From positions 1 to 64,000 of the forward strand of contig JAIOZK010000015.1 in the NCBI GenBank assembly GCA_021740625.1: a stretch of DNA of 64,000 bases. The letters run 5' to 3'. Below the pieces are notes generated by a model that did not search any database, was not told the DNA's origin, and saw only the letters and a list, made by a program, of their open reading frames with translations. The translations under genes were made by a program, and so were the position numbers. This document shows positions 1-16,669 of this stretch, one piece after another. Numbering within the stretch: the first letter of the stretch is position 1; each line of letters starts with the position of its first letter. The stretch is from Bacteroidales bacterium (GTDB lineage: Bacteria; Bacteroidota; Bacteroidia; Bacteroidales; JAIOZK01).

Positions 1-790
1 GGATTACAGAAGCTGAAACGGATATATTGTTGCATAAAGCATAATTTGTCGGGAAATACCCCCAGTTTGCCCACGGATATAGCTTTTCAAGAAGAGGTAC
101 CGGATAAGGCTGACTGTTGTAATCCGAAAAATCCCGCATTTGGTGACGCAACAGGCTCCTGTAATTAAGACTGTCGCCTGCATAAAAATCAGAGATCAGG
201 GCTGAAGACCTGTTATATCTTTGAATCCCTGTACTTCCACTACCATTCACAGTGAAATTGGTTCTAATGATGTAACCATCCGGCTCATCTTCTGCATTGA
301 ATTTCCAGTATTCATTGCCTCCAACCTCAAAAATGGCGGCATTGCTGTTGCTGTCAATGACTGCAAAATTGGCCCTTGTGTTCCTTCCGGTAATATTTGT
401 TGAATCGAGATAATCCTGAAAATCATCAATTGTAACGCAATTACCCAGCGCATAACGCATTACCGTGCCATTACCCGGTCCTGAACCACCTGTTAGATCA
501 TAAGTCAGTGAATTTAATATTGCAAAACCATATTCATTTACACCCATCCATGGTATATTACTGTATCCTGCATTGGCCACACAGATATAGTGAATATTAA
601 ATGAAGTAATGTACTTTACTTCATTGTTTGGGGCAGATGAATTATCTCTCGTTTTCTATATAAGTGGTCGCCCATCCGGAGTTGAAGAAGCTGATGCAGC
701 ACCTATTGTACATTCATCCAAATTGGACTGTGGGTATAAGATTATCTGTAAAAACAGTATTAACAGAACTGAAATAGATAACTTTTTCAT
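1..790 (-). pseudogene. C45-type Ntn hydrolase (acyltransferase-like), interrupted by an in-frame amber codon; runs off the left edge
   Basis: The gene starts at an ATG at 790 behind AGGAGG. A signal peptide (MKKLSISVLL onward) leads to CTIGAASASSTPDGRPLI, where Cys27 would be the N-terminal nucleophile exposed by autoprocessing, as in the acyl-CoA:6-APA acyltransferase/C45 and choloylglycine hydrolase-like families. Codon 45 is TAG (656-658), exactly where the family normally has Trp in a DGRPL-W-K-RD motif. The frame is then open through KTRDNSSAPN, NEYGFAILNSL and NAAIFEVGG to base 1, about 218 more codons without another stop. I infer a TGG-to-TAG nonsense change, either recent decay or an amber that is read through. 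The gene carries the same operator as 5752-6312 and 8070-9407. Confidence 0.8.
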
Positions 791-835
791 AATAACCTCC
801 TGTTTATTTCTGAAACAATGTTGAATGATCGTTCT

Positions 836-986: not shown

Positions 987-3900
987 TCAGGTAGTGTACT
1001 CGGATGGCAGCACTCCGAACTGATCCCGGAAGCATTTCGTGAAATAAGAAAGATTGTTAAACCCCACCTGGAAAGCAACTTCAGTAACATTACCGGCTTT
1101 GCTTTTCAACAATTCAGCAGCCCGGTTCAGCCTGATGGTCCGTATAAAAACACTGGGAGACTGGCCCAGCAGGGATCTGAATTTCCTGTGCAGCTGGGTT
1201 TTACTCATGGCGATTTCTTTCCTGAGGGATTCAATAGAAAACGCCTCATCCTCCAAATGATCATGAATAATCTCAACCGCCTTCTGAAGAAAGTGTTGAT
1301 CCATTGTCGTAAGATCATCTTCCGCCAGGTGAATAAGCCGGGATAAGCCATATTGCCTGATATTCCTGCCAAACCGCTCCTGCAGCTTTTTTCTTTGCTG
1401 AATAAGGTTTTTTACGCGAAGCTGAAGCTCTTGATGGTCAAATGGTTTGGTGATGAAATCATCGGCACCGGTTTCCAGTCCTTCCAGGCGGTCTTCAAGG
1501 GAGACTCTGGCCGTTAACAGTATTACCGGGATATGGCTGGTGCGCTCATCGGTTTTTAGTTTGCGGCACAATTCCATGCCATCCATTTTGGGCATCATCA
1601 CATCGCTGATGATCAGGTCGGGGACTTTTTCGATGGCTTTCTCATAGCCCTGTTCACCGTCCTCTGCCTCTGTCAGTTGTAATTCACCGGAAATATTGGA
1701 ACGGATGTAATGGCGCATGTCGGCGTTGTCTTCTACCAGGAGAAGGAGGGGCTTGTCTTTATCAGTTGCAGGTTGCAAGTTGCAGGTTGCAGGTTTAGGG
1801 GGATTTTCGATTGTCGATGGTCGATGGTCGATTTTCGATTTTCGATTGACACTTGCTTCCAGGGTATTTGATGCAATTTCTTCCTCCTTAAGATGTTCCT
1901 TACCCAGGGGAAGCATGACTGTAAAGCTGCTTCCTTTCCCTGTTTGCGAATCAACGCTGATTTTGCCGTGATGCAGTTCAACCAGTTCTTTGGTCAGTGC
2001 CAGGCCGATGCCGGTTCCTTCTCCGCTGTTTGAATCGTTGTCGTATGCCTGGTAAAAGCGATCGAAGATGTGGGGGAGGTGGTCGGGTGGGATGCCGTGG
2101 CCGGTGTCGGAGATTATTATTCCAGCGCACGGGCCAGCAGTGTTGGCAGTTGGCAATACGCAGTCTGCAGTATATTCACCAATAACAGACTGCCGACTGC
2201 CGACTGCCCACTGCTGACTGCTGACTGCCGACTGCTGACTGCAAATCTCAACCTCTACCCTGCCTCCGTCCTCTGTGAACTTAAACGCATTCGAGATCAG
2301 GTTGTAGAGGATCTTCTCGTATTTGTCCTTATCCAGGTAAACCGGGATGTTTTCCTGGTTAGCTTTAAATTCAAGTGCGATGTTCTTTTTCTTTGCCAGC
2401 GATTCAAACGACTGCACGTAAACCTTGCTTAGAGAAACGATATTTTCTTCTTTTACCTTAAGCTTCATATTCCCCGATTCAAGCTTGGAAAGATTCAGCA
2501 ATTGGTTGATCAGGTTTTGAAGCCGCCTGGCGTTTCGTTGCATGATGTTCAGGTCGGCTTGTGATCCCGGGTCATTGGTCTTGGATCTGAATTTTTCTAA
2601 TGGTCCAAGAATCAATGTGAGTGGTGTGCGGAATTCATGGGAGATATTGGCAAAGAAGCGGGATTTCATTTTGTCGAGCTCTTTGAGTTTGTTCGATTCT
2701 ACCTCTTTTATTTCAAGGTCGTGCTGGAGTTTTTGTTCTTTTAGTGCTGTCTTTATTCTTCTTTGTCTTATAAAAAGAATTGTTACCAGGAGTAATATCA
2801 ACAACAAACCGCCAAGTCCATAGGTTAGAATCTTCGACCGGTTGATGCGCAGATCTTTCAGCTCGTTTTCTTTTGCGAGTATGGCAATCCGGTTCTCGGT
2901 TTTCTCATTCTCCCACTCTGCCTCAAGCATGGTGATCATTTTCCTGTTGTCTTCCAGGAAAAGCCTGTCTTTGGATTCCTGCCACAAAATGTAATATTCG
3001 TGGGCATCTTTGTAATCACCAAGCGCTTTGTAAGCGAGATATATTTTTCGATAAACCCAACCTAAAACTTCTTCATAATAGTGGTCTTCGGCAATGGTCC
3101 AACCAAACGGATCAATCCCTTCATAATCTTTAATGTTAAAGTTTAATCTCGCTTCTCCGGTTTTTTTTATCCCCTCTTTATATATTTTTATTGCAGCCCG
3201 GTAATCTCCGGCCCCAGCCCTTAAATCCCCTAAACGATTGGTAACATGCAGCTTCATAAAATTTTTAATTAAGAAAGTATCCGTCATGCTTTTTACTTTA
3301 TGCAGGTATTTAAGGGCGTATGCGGTGTCATCGTGTGTCCTTAAATTTAGATAATAATAGGCCAGGTTATGATATATGGATAAGTAACCGGCATACTCAT
3401 TTTTGCTCTTGAAATTATATGTTTTTTCCAGATCGGTTGCGTTTAACAGCCAGTAAATGGCTTTCTTATAATAATTGCGAATTATTTCTTTATTTTCCTC
3501 CCAATACAAATAAGTAAGCCGGACTTTTCGGCCCGTATTGTAAGCTTTATTGTGGTAAACACTGGCGAAAAATGTGGTATCAGGATATTTTCGGAGAATT
3601 TCCAGTGCCTTATCCAGGCAGATATTCGCTGAATCAAATTTATTTGAATTGGTAAAGTAAAGGCTTGCTGAATTCAAAGCTAAAGCCTCACAATGATGGT
3701 CAGACAGTTCATGTGCAATTTGGATTTCTCTTTTTATTTGCTGTATTGCTTTTTCCAGTCTTCCGGCCCTGAAGTTTAGAAGTGAAAGTATTTCCAGGGT
3801 GTAGCCCATTTCCATGCAAACATCAATGTTCTCAAAAATCCTGAGTGCAGTTAAATAATTGACTACTGAATTTTTAAGGCTGTCCAGGAAAAAATACCCG

Positions 3901-4181
3901 TTGCCCAGGTTGAAGTATCCTGTAGCCTCTCCTTTTTTATAATCCACTGATTCGGATAACTGAATGGTTTGACTGGCCATTGAAATGCAGCTATCCGGGA
4001 ATTTATAACAAAGCTTGAATGCCATTTTATTCAGGGCATCGATTTTTTCGGTGCCTTCCAACTCAGGCAGCAGTTGATTCAGGCTGTCGGCATTGATGCT
4101 TGCCATTTCCCTGGAGATCTGGCCGGAAGAGGTTAAAGCAAACAGGAAAAAGACAACAATTAGTATTGACTTCAACTTCAT
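987..4181 (-). CDS. Hybrid two-component system 1: periplasmic TPR sensor, histidine kinase, receiver, AraC
   Basis: 1064 aa. The start is the ATG at 4181 ([16 protein letters not shown] signal peptide); the longer ORF adds 44 residues with no signal and reads through a repeat. Residues about 25-430 are TPR-like helices, then one membrane helix (about 452-472, [19 protein letters not shown]), HisKA with SHEFRTPL (about 515), HATPase with N box [13 protein letters not shown]1 SDTGHGIPP and G2 GEGTGIGLA, receiver with [11 protein letters not shown] (phospho-Asp near 858), and a C-terminal AraC/HTH_18 domain ending [10 protein letters not shown]. Unlike classic HTCS proteins there is no beta-propeller sensor. 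Heptamer repeats are embedded in the HATPase loop and in the kinase-receiver linker, both in frame. One of three paralogues (see 9574 and 13031-16169). Confidence 0.93.
1765..1792. repeat. GTTGCAR heptamer tandem repeat, four units, in the HK1 linker
   Basis: Plus strand: GTTGCAG, GTTGCAA, GTTGCAG, GTTGCAG. On the coding strand it encodes [11 protein letters not shown] between HATPase and receiver, in frame. Kinase 2 also has four units and kinase 3 has five. Confidence 0.9.
1806..1847. repeat. TCGATT-type heptamer tandem repeat, six units, in the HK1 linker
   Basis: Six 7-bp units (TTCGATT, GTCGATG, GTCGATG, GTCGATT, TTCGATT, TTCGATT) coding for [16 protein letters not shown]. The same six units occur in kinase 3 (13857-13898); kinase 2 lacks them and has unrelated linker sequence. 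Confidence 0.88.
2188..2243. repeat. GACTGCC heptamer tandem repeat, eight units, inside the HK1 HATPase domain
   Basis: Eight 7-bp units of GACTGCY/CACTGCT, translated as [18 protein letters not shown] between the strand after the N box and the G1 motif. A degenerate inverted copy (GGCAGTT, CGCAGTC, TGCAGTA) precedes it at about 2140-2172, so the insert can fold as an imperfect hairpin. Kinase 3 has only two units here; the difference of six units is 42 bp, which keeps frame. Confidence 0.88.
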
Positions 4182-4254
4182 TGGGTTTGGTTTGTTTTCA
4201 TAGGTAAAGATAAGAATATGAGGCACTTTATGCAAGTTGTATTGAAAAGGGGAA

Positions 4255-4312
4255 GATTCCCGGCTCTGCGGTCCTCCGCGGTTCTCTGCGCAACTCCGCG
4301 CAATAGCTTTCA
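4255..4312. repeat. CTCCGCG/TTGCG-type repeat upstream of kinase 1
   Basis: Contains gcggtcctccgcggttctc and ctccgcgcaatagc. It belongs to the same family as 6440-6495, 12838-12890 and 16250-16295, each just upstream of a kinase or surface-protein gene, and is inverted relative to 907-952. Confidence 0.6.
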
Positions 4313-4358
4313 ATCTCTTTTTTTTAAAGAAATGAATTTTGAAACATACATGATGTGT

Positions 4359-5751: not shown

Positions 5752-6312
5752 TTATTCCAGTTTGATCAGTTTTTTGGTTTGCATGCCTTTAGTGGTTTTT
5801 AATGTGCAAAAATAAATACATGGCTTTAAATTGGCCGCAAAAAATACAATTTGCTGTTCTCCCTGCCAGGTGGCGGTGAAAAAGTACAGCTTGCCACCTC
5901 CCGGGATGAACCGGAAAGTATGCCTACCTTTATCCAACACCCTTTCTCTTTTGACAATAACCCGTCCCAGGATATCGGTCACCATGGTGCTGACCTTATC
6001 CCTTTCCGGGACATACAACGAAACGTTTGTCTGCTCTGCCACCGGGTTAGGATAATTCTGGAAGACCCGGAAGCCTTCTTTCCTCAGGTTAGTCTCCGGA
6101 ATTCCGACCTGATAATCCAAAACGAGTACCGTGTCAGGGTAATATAAAACCGTATCGCCTCCCTGGCTTCGGTTCATAACCTTGATGCTGTCTAACTGGA
6201 CGTAAGCCGCACTGTCGATAGCCGTGAATGTAAGATCAATGCTTGGCCTTTGTCCGAAAGTGGCTATTATTAAAAATAGCACTGTTACAGTAAGAATAAT
6301 TTTTTGTTTCAT
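5752..6312 (-). CDS. Short secreted protein with T9SS type A sorting domain, paralogue of the FISUMP proteins
   Basis: 186 aa with a signal peptide (MKQKIILTVTVLFLIIATFG). Residues about 25-130 are nearly identical to the N-terminal module of the two FISUMP proteins (DSIKVMNRSQGGDTV, FRVFQNYPNPVAEQT). The protein then ends in a complete type IX sorting tail (GMQTKKLIKLE) instead of a FISUMP domain. It is therefore probably exported by the T9SS and anchored or released at the surface. It looks like a recombinant or minimal form of the paralogues, with little besides the sorting module as cargo. Own AraC-type operator upstream, terminator downstream. Confidence 0.85.
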   Translation of the reverse strand: MKQKIILTVTVLFLIIATFGQRPSIDLTFTAIDSAAYVQLDSIKVMNRSQGGDTVLYYPDTVLVLDYQVGIPETNLRKEGFRVFQNYPNPVAEQTNVSLYVPERDKVSTMVTDILGRVIVKRERVLDKGRHTFRFIPGGGKLYFFTATWQGEQQIVFFAANLKPCIYFCTLKTTKGMQTKKLIKLE

Positions 6313-6338
6313 ATGACTTGGTTTTTGATGCTGTTTAA

Positions 6339-6397
6339 CAAATTTATGTACCGTAGCAGGTGAAATGCTAACACTTGTGTTTCATTCTTTGACACTT
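6339..6397 (-). promoter_or_regulatory. AraC-type direct-repeat operator and -7 box of the short T9SS gene
   Basis: Minus strand: AAGTGTCA and AAGTGTTA 21 bp apart (plus-strand 6390-6397 and 6369-6376), then 22 bp to TAAATTTG (6339-6346). Spacing is identical to the copies at 836-894 and 9443-9501. Confidence 0.75.
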
Positions 6398-6439
6398 ATG
6401 ATCCAAAATCGGGTTTTTACTTGCTTCATTGTCGTTTAA

Positions 6440-6495
6440 TTGGCTGCCAATACTCCGCGGTCCTTTGCGTAACTCCGCGTAATAGCTTTTAATAG
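6440..6495. repeat. CTCCGCG/TTTGCG-type intergenic repeat
   Basis: Contains actccgcggtcctttgcg and aactccgcgtaatagc. The stretch 6398-6604 holds only this repeat and the 3' flank of the FISUMP gene; the 71-aa ORF at 6368-6583 translates this repeat and is not a gene. Confidence 0.6.
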
Positions 6496-6604
6496 AATAC
6501 TCTTGAAAGATCAGGGGGTGTTTGTGATTTGTGAAGAGCTGTTGCTCAATGCCGTTCTCTTTGCCTCCGTGTATCATTTTCACCCCTCATTTGTTGGGGA
6601 ATTG

Positions 6605-7936
6605 TCAATCATCCCTCAAACAGCGAACACTGAAACCGAGTTGCTTGTAGGTGTAGCCCCGGCTTACTTCCGGGCCGAGGTAAAGGAGGTTACGGTTCCA
6701 TGCGTGGTGGATGCCTTTCTCCGTCGATGTCCACCAGTAGCTGAAGTTGCCAAAATTGTAGAAGTAACCACTGCCGTAGCGGACGCCACCGGGCAGACCC
6801 GAGAAGCCGAACAGGTCGGTGCCGTTGCCATTATAATACCATCCGCTGGTAGTCTTCAGATTCGTCCCGGCATCAGTTCCACGGTATTCAGAAGAAAAAT
6901 CCCATTCCGGATCACCGATCCCATACTGGCTGTCCACCGCCCCTTCCAGCACCTTCCATTCCTCGTCCGTGGGCAGATGCCAGCCCGGCGGGCAGATGCC
7001 CTGGGTGCCCTGCTGGGTAGTGTACTGCATCATCTCATTCCATTGGTATAGGCCGCCGTACTTGGTGCAACTGTCGGGTTCGTTATCGTAGCAGTATTTC
7101 TCATTGGTGTCATTATTGGCCATATTCTCACTTCCCGGAATCATTGTTCCTACGTTCAGGTTTTCTTTCAGCCAGCACTGGCTGAAGATCTGGATGGTGT
7201 TGTACACCTGCCCCTCGTAGCTCACAGTGGGCGTTCCCGGGCAGGGTATGTTGGTGGCAAACTGGAAGGTGTAATCCCCGCTTTCTTCAGGGGAATCCAG
7301 CATGCCGGATTGAAGGGTGTCAGAGCAGCCAATGTATAAAAGTTCATCACCCGGGCTGAAAGGGAAACTCCGGATATCCGTAGTTGCCTTTAATTGAGAG
7401 GATGAACTCTCGTATCCAATATATTCAAGTACACCTGTATTGTATGAACCGGGATTTGTTTGCAGGATTTTAATACTGCTGCGCTGTCCCTGCCAGGCGG
7501 CAGTGAAAAAGTACAGGTTTCCACCTCCCGGGATGAACCGTAAGGTATGCCTGCCTCTGTCCAACACCCTTTCACTTCTCACAATAACCCGTCCCAGGAT
7601 ATCGGTCACCACGGTGCTGACCTTGTCTTTTTCCGGGACATACAACGAAACGGTCGTCTGGTCTGCCACCGGGTTGGGGTAGTTCTGGAAGACCCGGAAG
7701 GCTTCATTCCTCAGGTTAGTCTCCGGAATTCCGACCTGGTAATCCAAAACGAGTACCGTGTCAGGGTAATATAAAACCGTATCGCCTCCCTGGCTTCGGT
7801 TCATCACCTTGATGCTGTCTAACTGGACGTAAGCCGCACTGTCGATGGCCGTGAAAGTTAATTCAAGCGTATTTTGACCCGGTAGAACAGATGATATACA
7901 AATGATGAAAGAAAAAAGTAGAATTTGTGTTTTCAT
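6605..7936 (-). CDS. Secreted FISUMP-domain protein 1
   Basis: 443 aa from the ATG at 7936 (MKTQILLFSFIICISSVLPG signal peptide, matching the paralogue's start). Residues about 20-190 are a T9SS-sorting-like beta module (FRVFQNYPNPVADQT, GRHTLRFIPGGG). Residues about 215-443 are a FISUMP domain with the hallmark YNTIQIFSQCWLKENL, YGGLYQWNEMMQY, CPPGWHLPTDEEW and a final FSVRCLRDD. FISUMP proteins are large families of exported proteins of unknown function in Bacteroidota and Fibrobacteres. There is no C-terminal sorting tail. It starts 133 bp after the FISUMP2 stop and lacks the AraC-type operator, so it is probably co-transcribed with FISUMP2. Confidence 0.9.
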   Translation of the reverse strand: MKTQILLFSFIICISSVLPGQNTLELTFTAIDSAAYVQLDSIKVMNRSQGGDTVLYYPDTVLVLDYQVGIPETNLRNEAFRVFQNYPNPVADQTTVSLYVPEKDKVSTVVTDILGRVIVRSERVLDRGRHTLRFIPGGGNLYFFTAAWQGQRSSIKILQTNPGSYNTGVLEYIGYESSSSQLKATTDIRSFPFSPGDELLYIGCSDTLQSGMLDSPEESGDYTFQFATNIPCPGTPTVSYEGQVYNTIQIFSQCWLKENLNVGTMIPGSENMANNDTNEKYCYDNEPDSCTKYGGLYQWNEMMQYTTQQGTQGICPPGWHLPTDEEWKVLEGAVDSQYGIGDPEWDFSSEYRGTDAGTNLKTTSGWYYNGNGTDLFGFSGLPGGVRYGSGYFYNFGNFSYWWTSTEKGIHHAWNRNLLYLGPEVSRGYTYKQLGFSVRCLRDD

Positions 7937-8000
7937 AATAACTTCCATTTATATGTTTCGTGTTTTGTGTTTGACTGAACAGTAGGAACACTGAACTTAT

Positions 8001-8069
8001 TTACAGTTTGATGATTTTATTTTGCATGTCAAGACCGCTATTAAGATGATTAAGGCGACTTACGATAGT
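8001..8069 (-). other. In-frame T9SS-tail-like extension behind the amber stop of FISUMP protein 2
   Basis: Directly after the TAG at 8070-8072 the same frame continues with TIVSRLNHLNSGLDMQNK and IIKL before TAA (8001-8003). A Lys-Ile-Ile-Lys-Leu end is typical of type A sorting domains. It may be a remnant of a sorting tail cut off by a stop, or an extension made by stop readthrough. It is short, so homology cannot be proven by eye. Confidence 0.45.
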
Positions 8070-9407
8070 CTATTCATCCTTGAGGCAACGGACGCTGAAA
8101 CCGTAAACAAAATAGTAGCCGAAGGTGTACCGGTGTACTTCCGTGCCGTTGTAACTAAGGCCGCGAAGCCACTTCCAGTGGCTAAATTTCTCCCCCGATG
8201 ACCACCAGGTGCCGTAGTAGCCAACATCGTTGAAGTCACCATAGTAGATGCGGCCTCCGCCGGGCAGACCTGAGAAGCCGAACAGGTCGGTGCCGTTGCC
8301 ATTATCATTCCATCCGCTGGTGGTCTTCAGGTTCTTCCCGGCATCATATCCACGCCATGCCCAGTAGTCATCCCATTCCGGATCACCGATCCAATACTGG
8401 CTGTCCACCGCTCCTTCCAGCACCTTCCACTCCTCGTCCGTGGGCAGGTGCCATCCCGGCGGGCAGATACCCTGGGTGCCCTGCTGGTTGGTGTATTGCA
8501 TCACCTCGTTCCTCTGGTAGAGGCCGCCGTACTTGGTGCAACTGTCGGGTTCGTTGTTGTAGCAGTATTTCTCGATGGTGTCATTGTCAGCCATGTCTTC
8601 ACTTCCCTGAATCATTGTTCCTACGTTCAAGTTTTCCTTCAGCCAGCACTGGCTGAAGATCTGGATGGTGTTATACACCTGTCCCTCGTAGGTCACCGTG
8701 GGCGTTCCCGGGCACGGGATGTTGGTGGCGAACTGGAAGGTGTAATTCACGCTTTCTTTAGGGGAATCCAGCATGCCGGATTGCAAGGTGTCAGAGTAGC
8801 CAATGTATAAAAGTTCATCACCCAAACTAAATGGAAAACTCAGTATATCCTTAGTTGTCTTTAATTGAGAGGATGAACTCTCGTATCCAATATATTCAAG
8901 TACACCTGTATTGTATGAACCGGGATTGTTTTGCAGGATCTTAATACTGCTGCGCCGTCCCTGCCAGGTGGCGGTGAAAAAGTACAGCTTGCCACTTCCC
9001 GGAATGAACCGGAAGGTATGCCTGCCTTTATCCAGCACCCTTTCACTTTTGACAATCACCCGTCCCAGGATATCGGTCAACATGATGCTGACATTGTCTT
9101 TCTCCGGGGCATACAACGAAACGGTCGTCTGCTCTGCCACCGGGTTGGGATAATTCTGGAAGACCCGGAAGCCTTTGTCATCCATATTGACTTCAGGCAA
9201 ACCTACCGGAAAATCCAGGATCAGGATAGTATCAGGATAATACAGTACCGTATCGCCTCCCTGGCTTCGGTTCATCACCTTAATGCTGTCTAATTGGACA
9301 TAGGCCACACTGTCGATGGCTGTGAAAGTTAATTCAATTGTATTTTGACCCGGGAGAACAGATGACATACAAATGATAAAAGTAAAAAGTAAAATTTGTG
9401 TTTTCAT
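8070..9407 (-). CDS. Secreted FISUMP-domain protein 2
   Basis: 445 aa, signal peptide MKTQILLFTFIICMSSVLPG, N-terminal sorting-like module (FRVFQNYPNPVAEQTTVSL), then FISUMP domain (CPPGWHLPTDEEW, GFSGLPGGGRIYYGDF) ending FSVRCLKDE and a TAG stop. Highly similar to FISUMP protein 1 except in the last about 80 residues of the FISUMP domain (the YWAWRGYDAG and YNGTEVHRYTFGYY region), which is where the paralogues vary. Preceded by ggaggttattATG and by the AraC-type operator, so it is likely first in a two-gene unit with 6605-7936. An in-frame sorting-like tail follows the stop. Confidence 0.9.
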   Translation of the reverse strand: MKTQILLFTFIICMSSVLPGQNTIELTFTAIDSVAYVQLDSIKVMNRSQGGDTVLYYPDTILILDFPVGLPEVNMDDKGFRVFQNYPNPVAEQTTVSLYAPEKDNVSIMLTDILGRVIVKSERVLDKGRHTFRFIPGSGKLYFFTATWQGRRSSIKILQNNPGSYNTGVLEYIGYESSSSQLKTTKDILSFPFSLGDELLYIGYSDTLQSGMLDSPKESVNYTFQFATNIPCPGTPTVTYEGQVYNTIQIFSQCWLKENLNVGTMIQGSEDMADNDTIEKYCYNNEPDSCTKYGGLYQRNEVMQYTNQQGTQGICPPGWHLPTDEEWKVLEGAVDSQYWIGDPEWDDYWAWRGYDAGKNLKTTSGWNDNGNGTDLFGFSGLPGGGRIYYGDFNDVGYYGTWWSSGEKFSHWKWLRGLSYNGTEVHRYTFGYYFVYGFSVRCLKDE

Positions 9408-13030: not shown

Positions 13031-13840
13031 TCAGGTAGTGTACTCGGATGGCAGCACCCCGAACTGCACCTGGAAGCATTTCGTGAAATAAGAAAGATTG
13101 TTAAACCCGACCTGGAAAGCAACTTCAGTGACATTACCGGCTTTGCTTTTCAACAATTCGGCAGCCCGGTTCAACCTGATGGTCCGTATGAAAACGCTCG
13201 GGGACTGTCCCACAAGGGAATGAAGTTTACGCCGCAGTTGGGCTTTGCTCATTTTCAGTTGCCTCTGGAAAGTTTCTGTAGAAAAGTTTTCGTCTTCCAT
13301 ATGCTTATTCACGATCTCAACTGCTTTGTTCAGGAATTTCTGATCGGTGGAGTTTAATTCGCTTTCCGGGAGGTTTAAAACCTCTGATAAACCCAGTTGT
13401 TTTGCCTTTTGTAAAAACTTTTCCTGCAGTTGTTTTCTTTGCCGGATAAGATTTTTAATTCGCACAAGTAACTCATGCTGGTCAAAGGGTTTTATAATGA
13501 AATCATCCGCTCCGGTTTCCAGGCCTTCCAGGCGGTCTTCCTGGGAAGCTTTGGCAGTTAAGAGTATGACCGGAATATGACTGGTTCGCTCATCCGTTTT
13601 CAATTTCCGGCACAGCCCTATGCCATCCATTTTGGGCATCATCACATCGCTGATGATCAGGTCGGGGACTTTTTCTATGGCTTTCTCATAGCCCTGTTGG
13701 CCATCCACTGCCTCTGTTATGTGAAATTCATTGGAAATGTTGGAGCGGATGTAGTGGCGCATGTCGGTGTTGTCTTCTACCAGGAGAAGAAGGGGCTTGT
13801 CATTATCAGTTGCAGGTTGCAAGTTGCAAGTTGCAGGTTG
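13031..13840 (-). pseudogene. Output half of hybrid two-component system 3 (receiver and AraC), out of frame with its kinase
   Basis: Receiver ([35 protein letters not shown]) and AraC domain ([24 protein letters not shown] end), about 80-90% like the C-terminus of kinase 1 by eye. It is preceded in its frame only by shadow sequence; the listed ORF start at 14020 lies in the wrong frame of the HATPase domain. The true upstream part ends in TGA four codons into the fifth heptamer unit. Deleting one 7-bp unit from 13809-13843 joins the two halves exactly as in kinases 1 and 2. Internal reinitiation (for example the Met of NTDMRHY) is possible but there is no clear ribosome binding site. Confidence 0.85.
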
Positions 13841-16169
13841 CAGGTTTAGGGGGATTTTCGATTGTCGATGGTCGATGGTCGATTTTCGATTTTCGATTGA
13901 GGCTTGCTTCCAGGTTATTTGATTCAATTTCTTCCTCCTTAAGATGTTCCTTACCCAGGGGAAGTATGACTGTAAAGCTGCTTCCTTTTCCTGTTTGCGA
14001 ATCAACGCTGATTTTGCCATGATGCAGTTCGACCAGCTCTTTGGTCAGTGCCAGGCCGATGCCGGTTCCTTCTCCGATGTTTGAATCTTTTTCGTCTGCC
14101 TGGTAAAAGCGGTCGAAGATGTGCGGGAGTTTTTGGGGTGGGATGCCGCGGCCGGTATCGGAGATTTTTATGCCAGCGCACGGGCCAGCAGAGTTGGCAG
14201 TAGGCAGTTCGCAGTCTGCAGTATATTCAACAGCATCAGACTGCCGACTGCAAATCTCAACCTCTACCCTGCCTCCGTCCTCTGTGAACTTAAACGCATT
14301 CGATATCAAGTTGTAGAGGATCTTTTCGTATTTGTCTTTATCCAGATAAACAGGGATGTTTTCTTCGGTGGCTTTAAATTCAAGAGCGATGTTCTTTTTC
14401 TTGGCCAGCGACTCAAATGACTGCACATATTCTTTGCTAAGAGAAACGATATCTTCTTCCTTTACGCTCAACTTCATTTTTCCCGATTCCAGCTTCGACA
14501 GGTTCAGCAATTGGTTGATGAGGTTTTGAAGCCGCCGGGCGTTTCGTTGCATGATGTTCAGATCGGCCTGTGATCCCGGGTCATTGGTCTTGGATCTGAA
14601 TTTTTCTAATGGTCCAAGAATCAATGTGAGTGGCGTGCGGAATTCATGGGAGATGTTGGCAAAGAAGCGGGATTTCATTTTGTCGAGCTCTTTGAGTTTG
14701 TTCGATTCTACTTCTTTTATTTCAAGGTCGTGCTGTAGCTTTTGTTCTTTTAGTGCTGTCTTTATCCTTCTTTGTCTTATAAAAAGAATTGTTACAAGGA
14801 GCAAGATCAACAGCAAACCGCCAAGGCCATAGGTTAAAATCTTCGACCGGTTGATGCGCATATCTTTCAGCTCGTTTTCTCTGGCCAGCAAGGATAGCTG
14901 GTTTTGTGTTCTTTCACTTTCTGATTCTGCTTCAAGTACGGCAATCAGCTTTCTTTTTTCCTGATTGCTTATTTCCTGAAACGTATTTTCTTTTAGCCTG
15001 TAATATTCCAACGCATTTTCAAAGTCTCCCAATTTCATATATAAATTGTAAAGGCTATCATATACCATCATTTTAGCAGACAGATTTAGGTACTTTAAAT
15101 AATAAGGGGACATTGCACCCATATCAATATGTGAATCCAGGTAGCTTGTCATTCTCTCTTCAGCAATCTCCAATCCCTTCAGATACAGTTGAATCGCATC
15201 CTTGTGGTCTCCTTCCCTTGATTTTATGGATGCAAGAAGACTATATGTCGTCATTTCTAGGCCAATTATTTCAACAGTATCGATCATCTCCTTTACTGAA
15301 TACAAATACCTCAGACCAGGATTTGCTGAATCGATCGGCTCATTTTCTAAATAGGCTTCTGCAAGATCATTAAGTATGTCATGACGCAGCCATAAATAAA
15401 ATGGGTTTGTTACTGAGGTTCTTTTGATCAGCGCGTATGCCTTTTCTCCCCATTCTATGCTTTTCCGGTAATGCTCATGACTGCCGGGATCAGTATCGCC
15501 TTTGCGCAGCTCACTACTTTGAAGTATACCATAATTATTGATTAGGGATAATGTATCGGGATGATCTTTTAAAATTGCCTGGGCTTTTAATGCATAGTAA
15601 TTTGCAGAGTCCAATTCATTTTTCCACCTGAAAGCCACAGCCATCTCCTGCATCGAAATAGCTGTACCGACAAAGTCACCCAGTTCATCATTTATCCTGA
15701 TCCTGCGCTTATCATATTGAATGGTTTTATCAATTCTTCCTGCACCGAAATTGATATTTGATAGCACCTCCATCGCATACCCCATCTCTTTGCAGAGGGG
15801 AATTTCTTCATATATCCTGATCGCTTCAAGCAAATATCCAAATGAAATCTTCAGGCTATCCAGGAATTTGAAATTTCTGGCCAGGCTGAGATAAGCATCT
15901 GCAATACCCTTCTGGTAACCCATTATCTCAGACAGCGCCATTGCTTCCTCCGCCAGTTTGATGCTGCTATCCGGGTTGTTTACTGTGAGAAACAGGGAAA
16001 TTTTATTCAGGGCATCAACTTTTGGGGTTCCTTCCAGTTCATGCATAACTTGTGAAAGACTGTCAACATTTATCAATCTCAGATCCCTGATCATTTGACC
16101 ATAGGTCTGAAAAGATGACAAAAAAGTCATCAAGAAAATGATCACAGACAAAACTGACTTCAACTTCAT
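13806..16169 (-). CDS. Sensor and kinase half of hybrid two-component system 3, truncated by a heptamer frameshift
   Basis: 787 aa from the ATG at 16169 ([20 protein letters not shown] signal). TPR sensor unlike those of kinases 1 and 2, membrane helix at about 446-466, His[10 protein letters not shown], HATPase with [21 protein letters not shown] and GEGTGIGLA. From the membrane helix through HisKA it is essentially identical to kinase 1. It ends in [13 protein letters not shown]-stop because the linker repeat has five units. As written the protein senses and phosphorylates but lacks receiver and DNA-binding output. It could still signal through a separate receiver, or be an OFF state of a switchable gene. 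Confidence 0.9.
13809..13843. repeat. GTTGCAR heptamer tandem repeat, five units, site of the kinase 3 frameshift
   Basis: GTTGCAG, GTTGCAA, GTTGCAA, GTTGCAG, GTTGCAG. One more unit than in kinases 1 and 2; 35 bp is not compatible with the frame set by 28 bp, and the extra unit creates TGA just past the array on the coding strand. Confidence 0.92.
13857..13898. repeat. TCGATT-type heptamer tandem repeat, six units, in the HK3 linker
   Basis: Same six 7-bp units as in kinase 1 (1806-1847), so only the neighbouring GTTGCAR array differs between the two linkers. Confidence 0.85.
14239..14252. repeat. GACTGCC heptamer, two units, inside the HK3 HATPase domain
   Basis: GACTGCC and GACTGCA, preceded by the same degenerate inverted units as kinase 1 (ggcagtaggcagttcgcagt). 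Translated as [14 protein letters not shown] before the G1 motif. Confidence 0.75.
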
Positions 16170-16669
16170 TGGGTTTGGTTTGCTTCCATAGGTAAAGATA
16201 AGAATATGAGGTACTTTATGCAAGTTGGATTGAAAAAGGATACATTCCTGACTCCGCGGTTCTTTGCGGTCCTCTGCGTAACCCCGCGTAATAGCTTAAG
16301 ATTTGGACCTTTTAAATGATAGAATAAAGTGGTTTGAAAATAATTTTTCAGGATTTATTTTTTGATTACATTTGTATGATTCCACCTTGCCCATTCCCAT
16401 TTTCAAGGGATAAATTGCCGGCAACTTTCTACCGGCTCAGATGCCAACCCGGATTAACAGACAAGATAAATTCCACAGTAGACCTATAGTCTTTTGCCTG
16501 CGGATTGATTGAATTGTTGAACCATTAAAATTGAATCGAAAACAGCTTGTTAAGATTCGCTTTTACATTTATCAAGAACAAACAGGGCTGGATTGTAAAT
16601 GGATTTCAGTGGGGTGATGATTTCCAGGATCTGTTTGAATAAATTTTAGATGACATCCTAAAAAGACAA
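16170..16669. other. Intergenic region between kinase 3 and hypF
   Basis: 500 bp between divergent genes. Bases 16170-16300 are the conserved kinase leader with the CTCCGCG/TTTGCG repeat (16250-16295). A lone -7-type box TACATTTG lies at 16367-16374 on the plus strand without a properly spaced TTTG. A small palindrome gccggcaactttctaccggc is at about 16418-16437. No gene is seen in the rest; the hypF promoter is probably here but I cannot fix it. Confidence 0.5.

Follow-up and report, generated by a model that had tools for sequence, protein, structure and literature searches.

The window analysed here covers bases 1 to 64,000 of a Bacteroidales contig of 96,160 bases (G000:C19), and its base 1 is the end of the assembled sequence, not just the edge of the window. 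The gene that runs into this end on the minus strand encodes a secreted C45-like hydrolase and is interrupted by an in-frame TAG. Beside it lies HTCS1, a TPR-HisKA-HATPase-receiver-AraC hybrid regulator that is one of three paralogues within 16 kb, and between the two is an operator-like twin direct repeat (Table 1).

Read on the minus strand from base 790, the hydrolase frame gives MKKLSISVLLILFLQIILYPQSNLDECTIGAASASSTPDGRPLI, the stop and then KTRDNSSAPNNE, that is, 44 codons, TAG, and 218 stop-free codons down to base 2. No frameshift or further stop was found in the 654 bases past the TAG, and this part of the frame scores as coding. The initial annotation had described the amber codon with these codon counts, together with a preserved signal peptide, nucleophile Cys and ribosome-binding site. 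Both descriptions are confirmed, with the addition that the left limit of the frame is the contig end as well. A search of the rest of the genome did not recover the missing second half: the first 141 bases of the window gave only chance-level matches, and the C-terminal half of a relative hit unrelated sorting tails only.

Table 1. Features of the hydrolase locus and related sites (window coordinates unless a locus is named)
Feature	Position	Strand	Remark
Interrupted secreted C45/PF03417-like Ntn hydrolase gene	2..790	-	Cut at base 1 by contig end
In-frame TAG, codon 45	656..658	-	Relatives mostly Trp (TGG) there
Predicted nucleophile Cys27 codon	710..712	-	5' of the stop; Cys invariant in relatives
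ATG start and AGGAGGT ribosome-binding-like sequence	788..802	-	Read directly; AGGAGGT at 795-801
Operator-like twin direct repeat, ACACTTATGTTCCAA-N6-ACACTTATGGTCCAA	868..903	.	21-bp period; upstream of hydrolase
HTCS1, hybrid regulator adjoining the hydrolase	987..4313	-	Likely start MKLKS, base 4181
Other operator-like twin repeats	6371-6406; L131:13227; L132:1785, 3325, 6672, 11021, 17978
FISUMP paralogue	6605..7948	-	TGA at homologous end position
TAG of FISUMP gene 8070-9407	8070..8072	-	Ordinary terminator; 22 codons to next stop
Palindrome-bearing tRNA-Arg(CCG) copies	L057:804-898; L096:2658, 3390 (G000:C18)

The window protein is an Ntn hydrolase of a T9SS-secreted subgroup. With X put at the stop position, it passed the curated Pfam gathering cut-off for PF03417 (45 bits against 23.2; E=1.4e-11), and it shares with the C45/PF03417 (AAT) Ntn hydrolases and acyltransferases this profile score and the Cys nucleophile. 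Cys27, Arg48 and Asp49 are retained and are invariant in alignment A2. All members match the NCBIfam model NF040521 (C45_proenzyme), yet L047, an intact relative, reaches only 50.9 bits against a cut-off of 85, and we therefore call the protein C45-like instead of C45_proenzyme. Unlike the systems described by PF03417 and NF040521, the subgroup has in addition a T9SS tail at the C-terminus, and the present copy is interrupted. Its nearest relatives are 54-63% identical, about 500 residues long and carry a T9SS sorting tail; they come from MAGs of Bacteroidota, Calditrichaeota and Marinimicrobia. The C-terminal sorting domain is found in six of six relatives, and here the contig stops before that region. 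The Ntn fold is supported for the intact relative L047, whose AlphaFold model (mean pLDDT 69.9) is most similar to isopenicillin N acyltransferase (IAT, 2x1c; rank 1, E=4e-8) and to a C69 dipeptidase (5iau), with acid ceramidase also among its top matches. A sequence search of solved structures gave weak matches only.

The TAG had been placed at a position where the family has TGG. This holds for the T9SS-tailed subgroup, in which the residue is always Trp, but not throughout: across 44 loci read by pattern, some duplicates among them, 38 carry Trp and 6 carry Phe, Tyr or Leu, and L047 and L048 provide two further Trp. The order yielded about 78 matches from 75 genomes; of these, the window hydrolase alone has a TAG, and one other match carries TAA.

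Is TAG read as an amino acid in this genome? RF1 is present (496 bits; cut-off 423). No CUA anticodon occurs among the 38 detected tRNA genes, a list that is incomplete in lacking Ile and Glu tRNAs, and neither PylS (22 bits; cut-off 178) nor SelB was found above cut-off. In an 881-kb sample made up of the window and 41 other stretches, TAG terminates 91 of 508 long ORFs (18%), and the mean in-frame extension past the stop is 21 codons for TGA, 38 for TAG and 72 for TAA. A looser hexamer screen of the sample returned 116 stops flanked on either side by coding-like sequence, of which 16 (14%) are TAG, so that TAG is not enriched; by eye, the top pairs resemble neighbouring genes that share a frame, or cases with another stop. 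With a strict coding-score threshold, four pairs remained and none had TAG. Genome-wide, 150 T9SS tails and 90 receiver domains (240 in all) held no TAG and one TGA. Of the checks proposed in the initial annotation, the search for suppressor tRNA-CUA genes among the detected tRNAs and the survey of TAG frequency and in-frame extension in the sample were both negative. For amber recoding, this genome gives a clean negative result.

Two candidates in this survey were rejected. A TAG within a T9SS tail on contig C35 had been suggested by a weak BLAST match, and a profile search shows no stop inside that tail. A tRNA of type “???”, considered as a suppressor or tRNA-Sec, proved to be a copy of tRNA-Arg(CCG) that contains an inserted palindrome. 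It is identical to the adjacent copy apart from this perfect palindrome of 20 bp (CCTGCCTGCCGGCAGGCAGG) within the D loop; the same palindrome lies in a third, partial tRNA-Arg(CCG) copy and nowhere else in the 881 kb.

We compared the hydrolase with its six subgroup relatives at conserved positions. It is altered at 12 of 97 columns that are invariant in the six (13 of 98 counting the stop); each relative in turn is altered at 2-4 of about 88 invariant columns, in leave-one-out sets that are not independent. When scaled by branch length, about 4.3 changes are expected in the hydrolase (P ~0.002), its terminal branch being 0.45 and the longest 0.50. At columns that already vary, it does not stand out (25 of 96). 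Divergence is highest in the last residues that can be read (I279F, S284A, I285L and R287N, numbered by alignment column), and P rises to ~0.06 once the four changes closest to the contig end are excluded. The excess of change at conserved sites points to relaxed constraint, and such relaxation would favour a real pseudogene over a base-call error.

Neighbouring genes are damaged too. HTCS3 (13031-16295) is split by a frameshift that stems from a heptamer array (13807-13848) in the linker between kinase and receiver. Compared with HTCS1, this array contains an additional 7-bp unit (TTGCAAC), and the linker measures 172 bp versus 165 bp (168 bp in HTCS2). Period-7 arrays are the commonest short-period class in the sample (27, versus 0-12 at other periods), and six of them lie in the three HTCS genes. 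A slipping heptamer in the coding linker of a regulator could serve as an on/off switch. At a similar locus in genome G001, an N-terminal HTCS fragment is fused to a FISUMP C-terminus (L131:6101-7362, contig C36), the debris of a deletion. Elsewhere in the genome of the window, the kinase and receiver-AraC parts of another HTCS paralogue match about 1.4 kb apart (L135, G000:C3:88000-96000), with TAG codons in the aligned stretch (e.g., C3:92006); this may be another decayed regulator.

Upstream of the hydrolase, ACACTTATGnTCCAA occurs twice at an exact spacing of 21 bp. Eight such operator-like sites were found, all with the 21-bp period and all in the window or in G001 loci, with none in the rest of the sample. 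They precede genes for secreted proteins beside HTCS regulators in the two genomes, and the cargo varies while regulator and operator stay constant. This recurrence before cargo genes supports the AraC-type operator of the initial annotation. The one genome sampled from the same genus, G001, has the 3' part of an HTCS1 orthologue (88.6% DNA identity) and the operator; the slot behind them holds a Receptor-L/T9SS protein instead of the hydrolase, and the hydrolase was not found in that genome. Because the same regulator and operator there stand before a different secreted protein, the hydrolase is probably one of several exchangeable cargo genes able to occupy the slot behind HTCS1. Related hybrid regulators with one shared operator would thus take interchangeable secreted cargo, and the HTCS locus seems quick to turn over and decay.

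There are several possible explanations for the TAG in the hydrolase gene. Recent decay, sequencing error and suppression had all been offered at the outset; decay and error survive the present analysis, with decay favoured, and suppression is left without support. We consider a young nonsense mutation in a gene that the cell can dispense with and exchange the most likely cause, a consensus error the second and suppression a distant third. The TAG might be a consensus error or the allele of a minor strain that the assembler incorporated near a contig end, with the gene intact in the population. This is a realistic but clearly less probable reading: the gene does run into the contig end with its other half missing, and a single base difference would account for the stop in a readable frame that is otherwise open and coding-like. 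Against it, the TAG lies 656 bases inside the contig, in-frame stops are very rare in the assembly (one in the 240 conserved domains) so that the base error rate looks low, and other conserved residues of the hydrolase are altered too. A variant of the decay explanation is that the frame is the remnant of a longer-dead gene, with further disabling changes past the contig end. The divergence of the last readable residues and the missing remainder of the gene would fit, but 654 bases past the TAG without a frameshift or further stop make it rather unlikely. Since this variant overlaps with a young pseudogene, the likelihoods that we attach to the readings do not sum to one.

Readthrough of the amber codon, by a suppressor tRNA or by near-cognate misreading, could in principle give a low level of full-length hydrolase. 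The frame is open past the stop, the start, signal peptide and operator are intact, Tyr, Phe or Leu stand at the site in some relatives so that misreading could yield an active enzyme, and the tRNA list is incomplete. We nevertheless regard readthrough as very unlikely given that RF1 is present, a CUA tRNA is absent among the 38, PylS is below cut-off, TAG is a normal and frequent stop without enriched readthrough, and constraint on the hydrolase looks relaxed rather than kept. Code 15, in which TAG is read as Gln, is used by crAss-like phages (PMC9523058), and the likeness to the present case is an in-frame TAG in a Bacteroidota setting; here, in contrast, the gene is cellular, RF1 is present, TAG is used as a stop and a suppressor tRNA was not found. 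A brief literature search found no comparable cellular case. That a cellular Bacteroidota gene would use low-level, gene-specific amber readthrough to make a secreted Ntn hydrolase under a hybrid regulator is the least probable proposal of all.

The hydrolase gene is thus probably a young nonsense pseudogene. We infer that the stop is truly in the DNA of the cell and that the full protein is not made. In this explanation, a recent nonsense mutation would have inactivated a secreted C45-type Ntn hydrolase gene that had been exchangeable cargo behind the TPR/histidine-kinase/receiver/AraC regulator and its 21-bp-period operator. Translation would halt after 44 residues, leaving an inactive peptide with the signal peptide and the nucleophile Cys and without the catalytic domain; a translational restart downstream of the TAG would give a product without either signal peptide or nucleophile. 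The damage to neighbours at the locus (the HTCS3 frameshift and the HTCS-FISUMP fusion remnant in G001) speaks for a pseudogene. The lack of a second disabling change in 218 codons, the weakening of the conserved-site excess to the higher P value and the fact that the assembly lacks the gene's second half speak against it. The hydrolase is like other nonsense pseudogenes of accessory genes in its single in-frame stop within an otherwise intact frame and in its absence from the nearest sampled genome, and nothing notable differs. One broken accessory gene is an ordinary event and of little weight alone.

A second TAG, that of the FISUMP gene at 8070-9407, had been noted as followed by an open frame that continues into a sorting-like tail. 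The letters bear out an extension of 22 codons, ending KIIKL, but not its meaning as recoding: the paralogue has its TGA stop at the homologous position (SVRCLRDD versus SVRCLKDE), the Fib_succ_major profile already reaches its end two residues short of the TAG, and the sorting-tail-like domain of both FISUMP proteins is internal, around residue 90. The FISUMP TAG is an ordinary stop. The region 5752-9407 encodes three neighbouring exported proteins with a common module of about 160 residues at the N-terminus. The T9SS sorting-like domain has an internal position in this module (at about residue 90) and is followed in two of the proteins by a FISUMP domain.
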